From positions 1 through 40,128 of IMG/VR virus record IMGVR_UViG_3300021247_000226: DNA of 40,128 nt. One strand, 5' to 3'. This document shows positions 1 through 40,128 of this stretch, piece by piece. Each line of letters begins with the position of its first letter. Positions within the stretch are counted from its first letter, which is position 1. Origin of the DNA: a virus. Under the pieces are notes generated by a model. That model did no database searches and was not told the origin of the DNA. It was given only the letters and a program-made list of their open reading frames with translations. The position numbers and the translations under genes are program-made.

Positions 1-209
1 CCGACAAAGATACCGAGCAACCAGCTATTGGTGCTATTGATCGTACAAAACTAGGATTACTCGAATCAACTGGCGTATCTGCACACTCACTCGGCTCAGT
101 TATTCAGAACTTTCAGACATGGGGTGTACCACTTGATGAAGTCACATTTGTTAAAGGATGGTTTGAACATACCGTTAAAGAGAAATCCAATGACATTGAA
201 AAGATCGCA
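1..209. repeat. Left copy of imperfect terminal repeat
   Basis: These bases match 39919-40128. The first ~79 bases are identical; the rest carries about 19 substitutions, mostly at third codon positions, plus a one-base indel. Both copies encode the same part of a TylF-like methyltransferase. This most simply means the sequence is circular or circularly permuted with strain variation at the join, which gives a unit length of about 39,918 bases. A tandem pair of paralogous genes would look similar. Confidence 0.85.
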
Positions 210-25397: not shown

Positions 25398-25416
25398 AAT
25401 TTTGTTGGCTTTGTGT

Positions 25417-25443
25417 ATAAAAGGTGCGCAAATCTGCTAGTTA
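25417..25443 (-). repeat. Truncated attC-like half site (left array end)
   Basis: Read leftward it is TAACTAGCAGATTTGCG, nearly identical to the start of the site at 27380 (TAACTAGTAGATTTGCG), but it stops there and phage sequence follows. This marks the array's left end. Next to it GTTATGGCA and TGCCATAAC (25440-25468) enclose 11 bases, like an empty cassette. Confidence 0.5.
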
Positions 25444-25464
25444 TGGCACATTAAAACGATGCCA

Positions 25465-25690
25465 TAACACCAAATAGGCGCAATACTACGTTTTCGGTAC
25501 TTCAACACGTTTGTATATTAAAAATCCCAAAAAATACACGCAAAAGCAATCTGCTTCTATCCAAGTGTATTGTTCTGTTTTGGCATACTTGTTCCAATAA
25601 GTTCTGAATTGGTGTTTTGCTTTGTATTTTTTTACTTCTATCATAATATTTTGTTTTTAAATCCGTACTGCGCCTATTTGTGTTCCGTTA
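25465..25690 (-). repeat. attC-like hairpin enclosing a small gene
   Basis: TAAC at 25465, GTTA at 25687. Outer stem AAATAGGCGC (25472-25481) with GCGCCTATTT (25670-25679). The loop is about 180 bases and holds the 52-residue gene, unlike the short loops of the other sites. Confidence 0.5.
25486..25644 (-). CDS. Hypothetical protein inside a hairpin loop
   Basis: 52 residues (MIEVKKYKAKHQFRTYWNKY, then an aromatic WIEADCFCVYFLGFLIYKR stretch that may touch the membrane). The start lies behind an A-rich leader in the loop of an attC-like site. No known family. Small basic plus hydrophobic design would also fit a toxin-like peptide, but there is no support. Confidence 0.45.
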   Translation of the reverse strand: MIEVKKYKAKHQFRTYWNKYAKTEQYTWIEADCFCVYFLGFLIYKRVEVPKT

Positions 25691-25706
25691 GCAGAAATAA
25701 AAATTA

Positions 25707-25841
25707 CTACTGCCTCCAAAACCAATTACCTTTTAAGTGCTTTCTACCTTCTGGATAAAATTCTGCTTTATCAAAAGCTATCCACCATAATTCAAGTTTC
25801 CAAATAAAGAAACGTCTTTGTGCTACATTTAATTCTAACAT
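25707..25841 (-). CDS. Short cassette protein
   Basis: 44 residues, rich in Trp and basic residues (RRFFIWKLELWWIAFDKAEF). Its cassette is bounded by GTTAGCAGA and TCTGCTAAC plus a second complementary stretch. The ATG follows about 25 bases after the core. Unknown function. Confidence 0.45.
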   Translation of the reverse strand: MLELNVAQRRFFIWKLELWWIAFDKAEFYPEGRKHLKGNWFWRQ

Positions 25842-25863
25842 ATCCGTAATTTTTACTATCTGC

Positions 25864-25953
25864 TAACAGCGTATATACAAGATACGCCTACAAGCATTTG
25901 TTTATAATTTAAAGTTTTCATTAAGGCGTACCTCGTATATACGCAAACCGTTA
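25864..25953 (-). repeat. attC-like site (best example)
   Basis: TAAC, outer stem GCGTATATAC (25869-25878) with GTATATACGC (25935-25944), unpaired 5-base spacers on both sides, inner stem ACGCC (25884-25888) with GGCGT (25925-25929), a 36-base loop, then GTTA. This is the canonical attC layout. The loop carries an ATG that opens a 17-codon frame ending just before the next gene. Confidence 0.65.
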
Positions 25954-26397
25954 GTTGCAATACCTGAAATCCGTAAAGTGAATTACTGCCATTGGCTTTT
26001 TAGTTCTTACTTTAAACCACTCGCAAAAGTCATCAAACGATAATCCGTCATTCTTTGCTATTTCTTCCCAATTAACAGCTTTATCACCTATTGGAGCAAA
26101 TACAAAGTTTGTAGGGTCTTCCAATTTTTCAACTCCAACTCTTTCAAGTCTGCAAATTTCAACCTGTTTTGAGTTATAAGGTTTATCGCTCCAATATCTA
26201 ATTGATAATATTGCTTTGCCTTCATTGATTTCTTTTGCTCGTTTGCTCCACAATTCATAATTGGCTCTAATAGTGTGTATCTTTTCACATTCATTACTAA
26301 AAAGCCTTTTAATATTATCTACAAAACGAGTGCTTTCTCCTGCCCGAATATGAGTTTTCGGAAACTCTTTTGATACTGTTAATACAAATGTTTTCAT
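25951..26397 (-). CDS. ASCH-like (PUA-fold) protein
   Basis: 148 residues from the ATG at 26397. The frame stays open to an ATG at 26505 inside the upstream attC-like loop, so a longer form is possible. KIHTIRANYELW, AILSIRYWSDKPYNSKQVEIC and a C-terminal FCEWF segment resemble ASCH-domain proteins that bind RNA or modified nucleotides. The TAA stop is part of the TAAC core. Flanks GTTAGTTGCA.TACC are complementary over 15 bases with one mismatch. Confidence 0.6.
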   Translation of the reverse strand: MKTFVLTVSKEFPKTHIRAGESTRFVDNIKRLFSNECEKIHTIRANYELWSKRAKEINEGKAILSIRYWSDKPYNSKQVEICRLERVGVEKLEDPTNFVFAPIGDKAVNWEEIAKNDGLSFDDFCEWFKVRTKKPMAVIHFTDFRYCN

Positions 26398-26435
26398 ATA
26401 ATTAAAATTTATCGTTATTAAATCGGTACTGCAAC

Positions 26436-26562
26436 TAACAGCACCTACCAAAAAGGCGGGGCTTTCGGCTTCGTTAGAAGCATTTGTGCTTAAATTATCA
26501 TTCATCTTTATAAGTTTATTTTATGGTAAAAATCCCGCCCTTCTGGTAGCTGCAAAACGTTA
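26436..26562 (-). repeat. attC-like site
   Basis: TAAC, TACCA (26446-26450) pairing TGGTA (26544-26548), 4-base spacers, GGCGGG (26455-26460) pairing CCCGCC (26534-26539), GTTA. The loop (~73 bases) contains an A-rich leader and an ATG in frame with the neighbouring ASCH-like gene. Confidence 0.6.
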
Positions 26563-27234
26563 TATGAAAGTGGGCAGGAGTGCTTCGATTGAACTTTCGG
26601 GAAAAAGAAAAAGAAAAAATCTGCCCACGCTCAAATGATTTAGTGACCCAATGATTTCAAAAGGAAGTAAACACTTGCACGGCTGTCATCAAGTGGGTTG
26701 TGCTTTCTCAATCCATCAATTCCACATTCTGCACATCGGTCAATGCTTACATCTACTAATGTTGAAGCATCAAACAAGGGATATGGCATTGACCATTCTC
26801 TTTCTGTCGGGGCATCATTTACAATAGCGTGTAAAAAGTTTGTTTCAACTGGAAAATTTACATCGCTCCAAATTTCTGCCGTTTCTTTGTGCTTTACGTA
26901 GAAGTTGAAAAAAGCATCCCGAAGCTCTTTGTCTGTTTCGCAAGTCGGCATATCAGAAAGATTAGGTATTACATTTTGTTTAACCCAACCATTTGCTTTT
27001 TCAGCCCCCTCCTTGCTTAATAGTTCAAATCGGTCAAGTTCTGTTCCGCCTCTGTTTACTACAATAGCACCAACGGCAAATCCTGTTCCGTGTAAACTTG
27101 TGCTTTCTACGTCAAATAATAAAATGTTCTTTTGCATTTTAAATAATTTAATTGTTTTCCACGCTCATTTTTTCTTTTTCTTTTTACGTGCTTCTAATCG
27201 AGTGTAGTGCGTGAAAATCCCACCTTCATATAAC
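26559..27234 (-). repeat. Cassette with long complementary ends
   Basis: GTTATATGAAAGTGGG (26559-26574) is complementary to 27219-27234 with one mismatch. Inside are a perfect 19-base inverted repeat (A5GA5GA6T at 26602-26620 and its complement at 27167-27185) and a direct CCACGCTC pair. The exonuclease-like gene lies between. Confidence 0.65.
26640..27137 (-). CDS. DnaQ/RNase T-like 3'-5' exonuclease
   Basis: 165 residues. LLFDVESTS supplies the first acidic pair, WSDVNFPVE a middle Asp, and KHNPLDDSRAS the final His and Asp, so the DEDDh exonuclease layout is present. GTGFAVGAIVV fits the second strand of the RNase H-like fold. It would trim single-stranded DNA or RNA ends. It is a cassette gene with its own A-rich leader and lies in the same direction as the other cassettes. 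Confidence 0.75.
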   Translation of the reverse strand: MQKNILLFDVESTSLHGTGFAVGAIVVNRGGTELDRFELLSKEGAEKANGWVKQNVIPNLSDMPTCETDKELRDAFFNFYVKHKETAEIWSDVNFPVETNFLHAIVNDAPTEREWSMPYPLFDASTLVDVSIDRCAECGIDGLRKHNPLDDSRASVYFLLKSLGH

Positions 27235-27311
27235 ACGGGTTTTGCGTCAGTTTTGCCACCCACAAGCCCTACGCACAAAACCGAACGCAAAGCCCGAAAC
27301 CGTTTGCGTTA
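27231..27311 (-). repeat. Compact attC-like site
   Basis: TAAC, CGGGTTTTGCGT (27236-27247) pairing 27285-27296 in 11 of 12 positions, GTTTTG (27250-27255) pairing CAAAAC (27276-27281), a 20-base loop, GTTA at 27308. Confidence 0.65.
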
Positions 27312-27380
27312 TGTGCCAATAAACGGTGTGCATTGAAAGAAACATCTTTGCGTGTAAAACATTCGCAAATCTACTAGTTA
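27308..27380 (-). repeat. GTTA-to-GTTA spacer, copy 1 of an 75-base direct repeat
   Basis: GTTATGTGCCAATAAACGG begins a segment that is repeated, with differences, at 28065-28140. It ends with CGCAAATCT and GTTA and contains a TTTGCG/CGCAAA hairpin but no TAAC in the middle. It looks like an emptied cassette or a degenerate site. Confidence 0.55.
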
Positions 27381-27632
27381 TCGGCAATTGTAAACATCGA
27401 ATCCTCCGAAAGTAACATCCCTATATCTAACATAATATTCTCCTGTCGTTTCCGAAAAATGGAGAGAGCAATTTCGCAATCTAACATTATCGAATTTAAA
27501 CATACCGCCATTCCTATTAAGGTCAACTATTGCAGTATCCCATTTTTCTAAAATCTGTGGAAAAACAACTGCCGATAACACGGGTTTTGTGCCATTGGCG
27601 GTTTCGTTTTTCAATTCATCATTTGTAGTCAT
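27378..27632 (-). CDS. Cassette protein with attC-derived N-terminus
   Basis: 84 residues. The only ATG (27632) lies in the loop of the upstream attC-like site; residues up to about 22 (NGTKPVLSAVV) are read through its stem and core. The cassette proper encodes FPQILEKWDTAIVDLNRNGG onward, with short beta-strands. The TAA stop lies in the TAAC core. No family is recognised. Confidence 0.5.
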   Translation of the reverse strand: MTTNDELKNETANGTKPVLSAVVFPQILEKWDTAIVDLNRNGGMFKFDNVRLRNCSLHFSETTGEYYVRYRDVTFGGFDVYNCR

Positions 27633-27702
27633 ATCAAGTTTTGTTTATTAATTTAACATTTGTGGTTTAAATCGCCAACGGACACAAAGCCCGAAAACGT
27701 TA
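27576..27702 (-). repeat. attC-like site
   Basis: TAAC, CGGGTTTTGTG (27581-27591) pairing CACAAAGCCCG (27683-27693), 3-4 base spacers, TTGGCG (27595-27600) pairing CGCCAA (27673-27678), GTTA at 27699. The ~72-base loop holds the start codon of the neighbouring gene behind an A-rich leader. Cassette ends GTTATCGGCA.TTG (27377-27390 and 27566-27579) are complementary. Confidence 0.65.
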
Positions 27703-27710
27703 TGTTCAAT

Positions 27711-28025
27711 TTAAATCAACCCTGCGCTCCTGCGTGTTGAAAATAACCATGCTTCAAAATTATTCTCTGCATTTATATCCTGTTTAATTTTGTATTCTAA
27801 AAATTTCCTTTTACTCATTGCCATTGTTTCAATTTTTCGATCCTGATTCTTAAAATACCTTTCAGTTAAATAGTAAACTTCTTGCCCCCACTTTGTATCA
27901 AATATGAATACTAATTTTGTATCTAAGTAATCTCGTATTTCATCTGATAGTTTCCAATTTTTATTTACCCTTGCTTCTTTTCTATCATCAATAAGTTCGT
28001 CTATATATTTGCTTTCAAAATTCAT
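27711..28025 (-). CDS. Cassette protein resembling CysRS C-terminal helices
   Basis: 104 residues from the ATG at 28025. The frame continues upstream through an attC-like site but only with a TTG. DELIDDRKEARVNKNWKLSD followed by EIRDYL and DTKWGQEVYYL resembles the small C-terminal helical domain of cysteinyl-tRNA synthetase and stand-alone relatives. The role is unknown; a tRNA or amino-acid linked function would be a guess. Confidence 0.55.
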   Translation of the reverse strand: MNFESKYIDELIDDRKEARVNKNWKLSDEIRDYLDTKLVFIFDTKWGQEVYYLTERYFKNQDRKIETMAMSKRKFLEYKIKQDINAENNFEAWLFSTRRSAGLI

Positions 28026-28064
28026 TGATCTGTTGGTTAAAACTAAACATAATAGCACATTTGC

Positions 28065-28140
28065 GTTATGTGCCAATAAACGGTGTGTCTTGAAAGAAAT
28101 ATTTTTGCGGGGCACACAAACGCAAATCTGCAAAACGTTA
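28065..28140 (-). repeat. Direct repeat copy 2, degenerate attC-like site
   Basis: Same segment as 27308-27380, about 75% identical by eye. It is preceded by CATAAT in place of the usual CATAAC, so its neighbouring core is decayed. Confidence 0.5.
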
Positions 28141-39705: not shown

Positions 39706-40128
39706 AACCAATCCATCCCGTATATTCATCAGTAGAGGTGCTGAACTTCACCGCTGAAATGACGCGCCTAGTCATTAACAATAAAGTCGAAGGTGACCTA
39801 ATCGAATGCGGTGTTGCTGCTGGTTCTCAACTTGCCATGATGCAACAAACGCAATTAGAACTTAACGAACACCGTAACGTTATCGGGTTCGATTCGTTCG
39901 AAGGTATTCCATACGCATCCGACAAAGATACCGAGCAACCAGCTATTGGTGCTATTGATCGTACAAAACTAGGATTACTCGAATCAACTGGCGTATCAGC
40001 GCATTCGCTTGGTTCAGTCATTCAGAACTTTCAGACATGGGGCGTACCACTTGATGAGGTGACATTCGTAAAAGGGTGGTTTGAACATACCGTGAAAGGA
40101 AAAGCCAAAGATATTGAAAGAGATCGCA
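39702..40128 (+). CDS. TylF-like methyltransferase, 5' part (continues at window start)
   Basis: 142 codons to the right edge. GDLIECGVAAGSQLAMM is SAM motif I and VIGFDSFEGIP the next strand. Near 40115 an extra base shifts the frame relative to the copy at the window start, possibly a contig-end error. Joined to 3-401 it makes a full protein. It is the last gene of the glycan block. Confidence 0.75.
   Translation, partial: MKPIHPVYSSVEVLNFTAEMTRLVINNKVEGDLIECGVAAGSQLAMMQQTQLELNEHRNVIGFDSFEGIPYASDKDTEQPAIGAIDRTKLGLLESTGVSAHSLGSVIQNFQTWGVPLDEVTFVKGWFEHTVKGKAKDIERDR
39919..40128. repeat. Right copy of imperfect terminal repeat
   Basis: Matches bases 1-209 (see left copy). Protein differences are few (E/G, S/A and N/K near the end), while silent changes are many, so both copies have been under selection as functional genes. 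Confidence 0.85.

Follow-up and report, generated by a model that had tools for sequence, protein, structure and literature searches.

The window analyzed here makes up one complete IMG/VR virus record (40,128 bases) and probably derives from a Bacteroidota phage, since the nearest relatives of its large terminase (40–48% identity) were a human-gut phage sequence and Parabacteroides and Phocaeicola phages. The two ends of the record (window positions 15–105 and about 39930–40018) had approximately 70 nt in common and then diverged, as would be seen with circular permutation of the genome or with a bubble in the assembly. On the minus strand, a module parse revealed gene modules with 15-nt terminal inverted repeats alternating with hairpins, and the resulting array is listed in Table 1.

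Table 1. Features of the cassette array on the minus strand of the window, in the direction of its genes.
Feature	Position	Strand	Basis
Cassette array (hairpin, gene module, hairpin, gene module, and so on)	25440..28136	-	Inverted terminal repeats and hairpins parsed
First hairpin, 83 nt; R' box after it decayed to ATTATGT	28054..28136	-	Fold z -2.56
104-residue gene, own ATG at 28025; module end TTGAACATAAC	27711..28025	-	
Long hairpin, 119 nt (second site of the preliminary description); loop with leader and ATG 27632	27580..27698	-	
Putative loop start codon for the 84-residue gene, TAATAAACAAAACTTGAT-ATG	27630..27632	-	Position and class statistics
Predicted 84-residue gene, probably started in the hairpin; no homologue in the collections searched	27378..27632	-	
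Module of the 84-residue gene; terminal repeats GTTATCGGCAGTTGT / ACAATTGCCGATAAC	27377..27579	-	
Copy of the array-end half-site, TAGTAGATTTGCGAATG	27346..27376	-	Direct repeat of 25409-25439, end consensus
Short hairpin, 67 nt, without loop start; precedes exonuclease-like gene	27235..27301	-	
Module of the 165-residue exonuclease-like gene (27137-26640, own ATG)	26559..27234	-	
Long hairpin, 119 nt (first site of the preliminary description); loop ATG 26505 in frame with next gene	26440..26558	-	
Module of the 148-residue gene (own ATG 26397 to 25951); repeats GTTAGTTGCAGTACC / GGTATTGCAACTAAC	25950..26439	-	
Third-site hairpin, 82 nt; 21-codon loop frame, end 25856	25868..25949	-	
44-residue gene, own start; module GTTAGCAGATAGTAA / TTTATTTCTGCTAAC	25707..25841	-	
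Giant hairpin, 218 nt; complete 52-residue gene (25644-25486) in loop	25469..25686	-	
Empty gene module, 29 bp, GTTATGGCATCGTTTTAATGTGCCATAAC	25440..25468	-	
attI-like half-site at array end, AAC / TAGCAGATTTGCGCACC	25409..25439	-	End consensus; insertion point by analogy with lillamy9-7

The short hairpin and the exonuclease-like gene that follows it were found as the same pair, in the same order, in L009, and the module termini of the 44-residue gene were the same in L086 and L108. The array-end half-site was duplicated within the window (25409–25444 and 27346–27381), and this repeat suggests two arrays in tandem, with its copy at 27346–27376 probably being the end of the first. The 29-bp gene-less module of the window was identical in 19 viral contigs (L017–L035) and absent from the genome contigs searched; its loop, TCGTTTTAATG, recurred in many short hairpins. 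A reading of this palindrome (25440–25468) as a dif- or attI-like recombinase site was considered and rejected, the contexts being those of an empty module between two hairpins. All three sites of the preliminary description formed hairpins when folded as single-stranded DNA, with z values of -3.55 (26430–26570), -1.40 (27570–27710, weak) and -5.11 (25855–25960).

That description had placed start codons in the loops of the two long hairpins, with frames staying open into the next gene, and this was confirmed in the sequence. The minus-strand ATGs at 26505 and 27632 lie in the hairpin loops after the A-rich leaders TAAAATAAACTTATAAAG and TAATAAACAAAACTTGAT, and their frames are open through the 3' arm and the core, giving 184 and 84 residues, respectively. 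The accompanying statement that the 84-residue gene has no other ATG was incorrect, there being one more in frame at Met44, a position too deep in the frame for a likely start. The 84-residue reading frame is itself a prediction, and no homologues of its product were found in viral contigs, phages, plasmids or genome contigs. We consider it quite probable from its layout that this gene belongs to a class with long hairpins and loop starts, described below, and that the loop ATG is its native start, our confidence being lower than for the class since the gene is without a homologue.

The 184-residue frame has an own ATG at 26397 with an AT-rich leader, and its homologues matched from about residue 33–36 only. 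This gene also occurred in L001 (93% identity) and L002 (90%), with the same 5' leader and with the ATG following GTTAGTTGCAG, but behind two other, unrelated hairpins having no loop of the 26505 type. Because the gene keeps its own start behind other hairpins in these relatives, the 148-residue gene within this frame most likely starts at 26397, and the loop ATG at 26505, though in frame, is probably incidental and not the main start; the proposal that the site starts this gene was thus not borne out. At the third site a loop frame does exist, as had been described, but it comprises 21 codons when counted from the ATG at 25921 and 13 when a second in-frame ATG is taken, and not 17. The first of these ATGs is ACG in the relatives L111 and L136, with the second being kept. 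The frame stops approximately 15 nt ahead of the next ATG, an arrangement in which translational coupling is possible. In L111 the corresponding hairpin frame is open from the second ATG deep into the loop, apparently as a gene, and the hairpin in the window may be a remnant of a cassette that carried a whole gene in its loop.

We analyzed similar sites more widely through an IMG/VR search using one hairpin arm, AACGKTTTCGGGCTTKGCG, which yielded at least 120 contigs and, among the matches listed, 98 distinct sites. Of the latter, nearly all those with a long loop had a leader and an ATG whose frame ran on as the long downstream ORF, whichever of the three phases that ORF took with respect to the core GTT. 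With long sites followed by one clear downstream ORF, the ATG was in frame in 49 of 50 cases, the exception having GTG. A general array parser, detecting modules with 15-nt terminal inverted repeats between hairpins, was used to lessen the bias of a one-arm search, and gave approximately 185 chains over both strands compared to 5 on reversed sequence, the parsed set comprising about 150 viral contigs. It replaced a simple AAC...GTT stem finder, the matches of which were mostly chance, by needing both the terminal repeats and the hairpins. With GTT and AAC set as parser requirements, GTTA was seen in 244 of 263 modules and GTTRRRY was matched by 28, while position 11 of the terminal repeat formed a G.T pair in 243 (92%), thereby marking the orientation of the module.

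Among 170 hairpin–gene pairs the hairpin length was bimodal (55–95 and 105–125 nt) and tracked the type of cassette. Modules that lacked an own start (n = 54, from 41 protein families) had an in-frame loop ATG in 50 cases (37 families), all with long hairpins, and the remaining four seem to be non-genes or modules assigned wrongly. The corresponding figure was 1 of 44 for own-start modules behind short hairpins and 26 of 62 for own-start genes behind long hairpins, and because of the latter proportion an in-frame loop ATG is weak evidence for any single gene. For the class as a whole the agreement is beyond chance, even if a single case could be luck: random re-pairing of hairpins and genes for the 52 start-less modules with long hairpins gave a mean of 28.9 in frame (sd 3.3, maximum 42 in 5000 permutations), compared to the 50 observed. 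A second set, from another arm together with three phage records, had 8 of 8 in frame. The survey of loops for a conserved ATG and frame, which the preliminary description had suggested as a check, hence found the frame kept. About a third of the cassettes in these phages of Flavobacterium and related bacteria had what is very probably the gene's own start codon in the loop of the hairpin ahead of it, and the base composition near these loop starts was similar to that near own starts, being A-rich and G-poor. Two similar loops, ATG-TTGATAGAAGAACTAAACAGCC in L039 and ATG-ATTGATAGAATTACTGAACAGCC in L064, differed by one base just past the ATG, each serving a gene of the corresponding phase. Phase-2 cassettes also had a GTG at the hairpin foot (CCCGTG/TTA), which could be the start of some phase-2 genes, with phase-0 cassettes lacking it. 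One module of L094 (minus strand, at 2321) held a loop-started ORF of 442 codons that by eye resembled a class I aminoacyl-tRNA synthetase (FPYPSGSGLHCGHYYNYAIM). A long hairpin was absent from the plasmids searched.

Thirteen records from cultured Flavobacterium phages contained the same long hairpin (93% identity). Here the deposited starts of methyltransferase genes lie inside the loops (mumin6-1 gp006 and gp013, filifjonk9-1 gp009 and tooticki6-1 gp004), as do those of small genes such as filifjonk9-1 gp007. The Pfam methyltransferase domain began at residue 37–46 in three loop-started proteins, past the part encoded by the loop. Peptides that would distinguish initiation in the loop are MIDRITEQPFCQTR for the methyltransferase gp006 of mumin6-1 and MTELSKNAQVPQ for module G19. 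The suggestion that a site can supply translation initiation was in this respect upheld, with the loop ATG being the only plausible start for a whole class of cassettes and the deposited gene starts agreeing with it, and on these comparisons the loop ATGs are very probably the native starts of the start-less cassettes. The Muminvirus pan-genome has been reported to contain 142 genes, of which 26 are core, and a methyltransferase was linked to plating efficiency (Nilsson et al. 2020, PMC7077304); the word integron is absent from that paper. Within 17 Baltic isolates (L182–L184 and L186–L199), cassette content made up much of the difference in the array region.

Comparisons between related arrays revealed what it is that moves. 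L011 (contig IMGVR_UViG_3300044732_000733) and L035 were identical over 126 nt up to ...ATTACCTATAAC, whereupon L035 had an 817-bp insert of a hairpin and a gene, after which both contigs continued with a shared hairpin. Had the excision been canonical, the hairpin retained would have been the other one; the difference fits a unit of hairpin followed by gene. In the 17 Baltic isolates, modules found in several downstream contexts held to one upstream hairpin, whereas their downstream partners varied; the constant upstream pairs were h3-G5 (7/7), h1-G16 (10/10) and h7-G0 (12/12), counting cases with the upstream hairpin parsed. Apparent exceptions were G1, G3 and one G15. For G3 and G15 the parser had skipped modules, and G1 had two hairpins with different arms and the same loop start, MQKSLFENE or MQKTLFENE. 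Between lillamy9-1 and lillamy9-7, an identical 439-bp unit of hairpin and gene was relocated from the interior of the array to its end, at AAC/TACAATATTACATG, with 0 mismatches and with exact closure of the vacated donor site. This end site was the same in 16 of 17 parsed isolates. The relocation and the constant upstream hairpins together indicate that the hairpin belongs to the downstream gene, so that the mobile unit, as judged from these arrays, is a hairpin with the gene downstream of it, the former being inherited with the latter. Such inheritance is not absolute, as own-start genes can swap hairpins. The notion that a site lends a start or a tag to newly arrived cassettes was contradicted by these results, since hairpin and following gene move as one.

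The window had no match to TIGR02249 or PF00589 and no integron integrase, and three Baltic phage genomes had no PF00589 recombinase match; the enzyme for these would consequently come from elsewhere. One type of tyrosine recombinase had relatives in 12 loci, lying downstream of the 3' end of the array and on the same strand where the array was resolved. These array-linked recombinases scored 199, 198 and 176 bits against NF040815 (XerA; cut-off 220) and 151–172 bits against TIGR02249 (IntI; cut-off 265), and in alignment to IntI4 (2a3v) residues 172–202 faced 175–248, with approximately 43 residues missing at the IntI insert. They are accordingly XerA-like in sequence and without the IntI insert. 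Annotated phage relatives were, for the best among the matches listed, about 30–38% identical. We infer that the XerA-like recombinase acts on these hairpins, and it would do the cutting in those arrays that it adjoins.

Differences between loop codons were spread equally over positions 1, 2 and 3 (61, 65 and 68, respectively), with 14 synonymous changes compared to 60 non-synonymous ones, and this comparison found no selection on the loop peptide. It thus appears that the loop start and its frame are maintained and the N-terminal tag is not, contrary to the earlier suggestion that the tag matters as a peptide. In predicted RNA the unpaired fraction was 0.68 at the loop start compared to 0.21 in the 5' arm; the loop value was modestly above that of shuffled loops (0.61), and accessibility is hence given no weight here.

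We propose that these sites serve as attC-like recombination hairpins in an integron-like system of cassettes carried by phages; they would recombine as folded single strands, and the cassettes would be of three types. Type 1 would be a short hairpin and a gene with its own leader and ATG. Type 2 would have a hairpin of about 105–125 nt, the unpaired loop of which carries an A-rich leader and an ATG, followed by a start-less gene module; ribosomes would begin in the loop and proceed by way of the 3' arm and the core into the gene, with start and frame being kept rather than the peptide. In type 3 a whole small gene would lie inside the hairpin loop. The 84-residue gene of the window would be of type 2, with the 148-residue gene using its own ATG at 26397.

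Three other explanations were weighed against this proposal. According to the preliminary description, sites would give start codons and N-terminal tags to any arriving cassette, with the canonical integron polarity in which the upstream cassette owns the site. That would account for an in-frame loop ATG at both window sites and for the many own-start genes in frame behind long hairpins (26 of 62), but it predicts a constant downstream hairpin, whereas the constant partner was upstream, and about 56% in frame, as in the permutation, compared to the 96% observed; with the loop peptides not conserved and the lillamy9 relocation contradicting it, we find it highly improbable. Even less credence can be given to chance, meaning that AT-rich loops hold ATGs and short arms are often open, the real starts being internal or non-ATG. 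The 184-residue case is accounted for in this manner and permuted pairing still left 56% in frame, yet coincidence fits poorly with 50 of 52 and 8 of 8, with loop phases that track gene phases over 41 families, and with a one-base indel just past the ATG that splits similar loops serving genes of different phases.

It is also conceivable, though unlikely, that a short loop frame keeps the mRNA hairpin open and couples translation with no fusion being made, like ORF-11 of attI1 or the ORFs of attC sites (PMC8876359). The stop ahead of the next ATG at the third site would agree with such a leader, as would L017, where the loop frame stops inside the core. The start-less genes, however, have no second start to couple to, and the first ATG of the third site is lost in L111 and L136.

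Expression of integron cassettes depends on outside signals and on position. A recombination site bearing the start codon of its own gene would make that start independent of neighbours, and the hairpin, a supposed barrier to translation, would become its starting place, so that one short DNA element would both move a gene and start its translation. We lean towards the view that Bacteroidota phages share a cassette-shuffling system distinct from integrons, with a XerA-like recombinase, an attI-like 3' half-site and hairpin-first cassettes whose hairpin doubles as initiation region, rendering a mobile gene readable in any position. Such a system would provide a route by which accessory genes turn over in cultured flavobacterial phages, where it is testable at once, and gene callers and proteomic searches would be assigning hairpin-coded N-termini to these proteins unnoticed.

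As in integrons and CALINs, the latter having been reported in phages (Qi et al. 2023, PMC9892861), the arrays consist of genes parted by imperfect palindromes with AAC...GTT core boxes, many records are without an integrase, and methyltransferases are among the cargo; the Polaribacter CALIN NC_028924 of that study gave no matches with our array parser. Whole-cassette excision with re-insertion at one end is also shared with integrons, seen here from the isolate comparison only, as is a site folding as a single-strand hairpin with asymmetric arms (one of the three window folds being weak), the large hairpin family having a long 5' spacer and a short 3' spacer. In contrast to integrons, with attC at the 3' end of the gene, the phage hairpin lies 5' of its own gene and carries start codons in its loop, the modules have 15-nt terminal repeats with a fixed G.T pair, the GTTRRRY of RYYYAAC / GTTRRRY is rarely met (28 of 263), and the array-linked recombinases are without the IntI insert. 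The cassette genes point to the array end, and a Pc at that end could therefore not serve them. The system is integron-like in action but departs from the family in three of the features tested, namely the IntI insert, GTTRRRY and a 3'-side attC. In the literature searched, outside of which lay preprints and most subscription journals, we came across no description of attC loops that hold gene starts, nor of cassettes with the hairpin first.

In the reverse integrons of Treponema, integrase and cassette genes likewise have the same direction, but transcription of intI runs toward attI and the cassettes are located past that site (PMC3607928, PMC4909258), whereas in the phage system the recombinase gene comes after the array, with the half-site between it and the array 3' end. 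The array-linked enzymes have their best sequence match in XerA/XerC-like tyrosine recombinases (NF040815, PDB 4a8e, 5hxy), from which they differ in scoring below the NF040815 cut-off and in adjoining cassette arrays. ORF-11 and ORF-17 of attI1 and short ORFs in attC have been described as aiding translation (Hanau-Bercot 2002 and Jacquier 2009, as summarized in PMC8876359), and there too a recombination site supplies initiation that helps a cassette gene. As far as that summary goes, they encode separate peptides coupled to the cassette's own start, whereas in the phage hairpins the gene's only start would lie in the site itself and the product would be a fusion.
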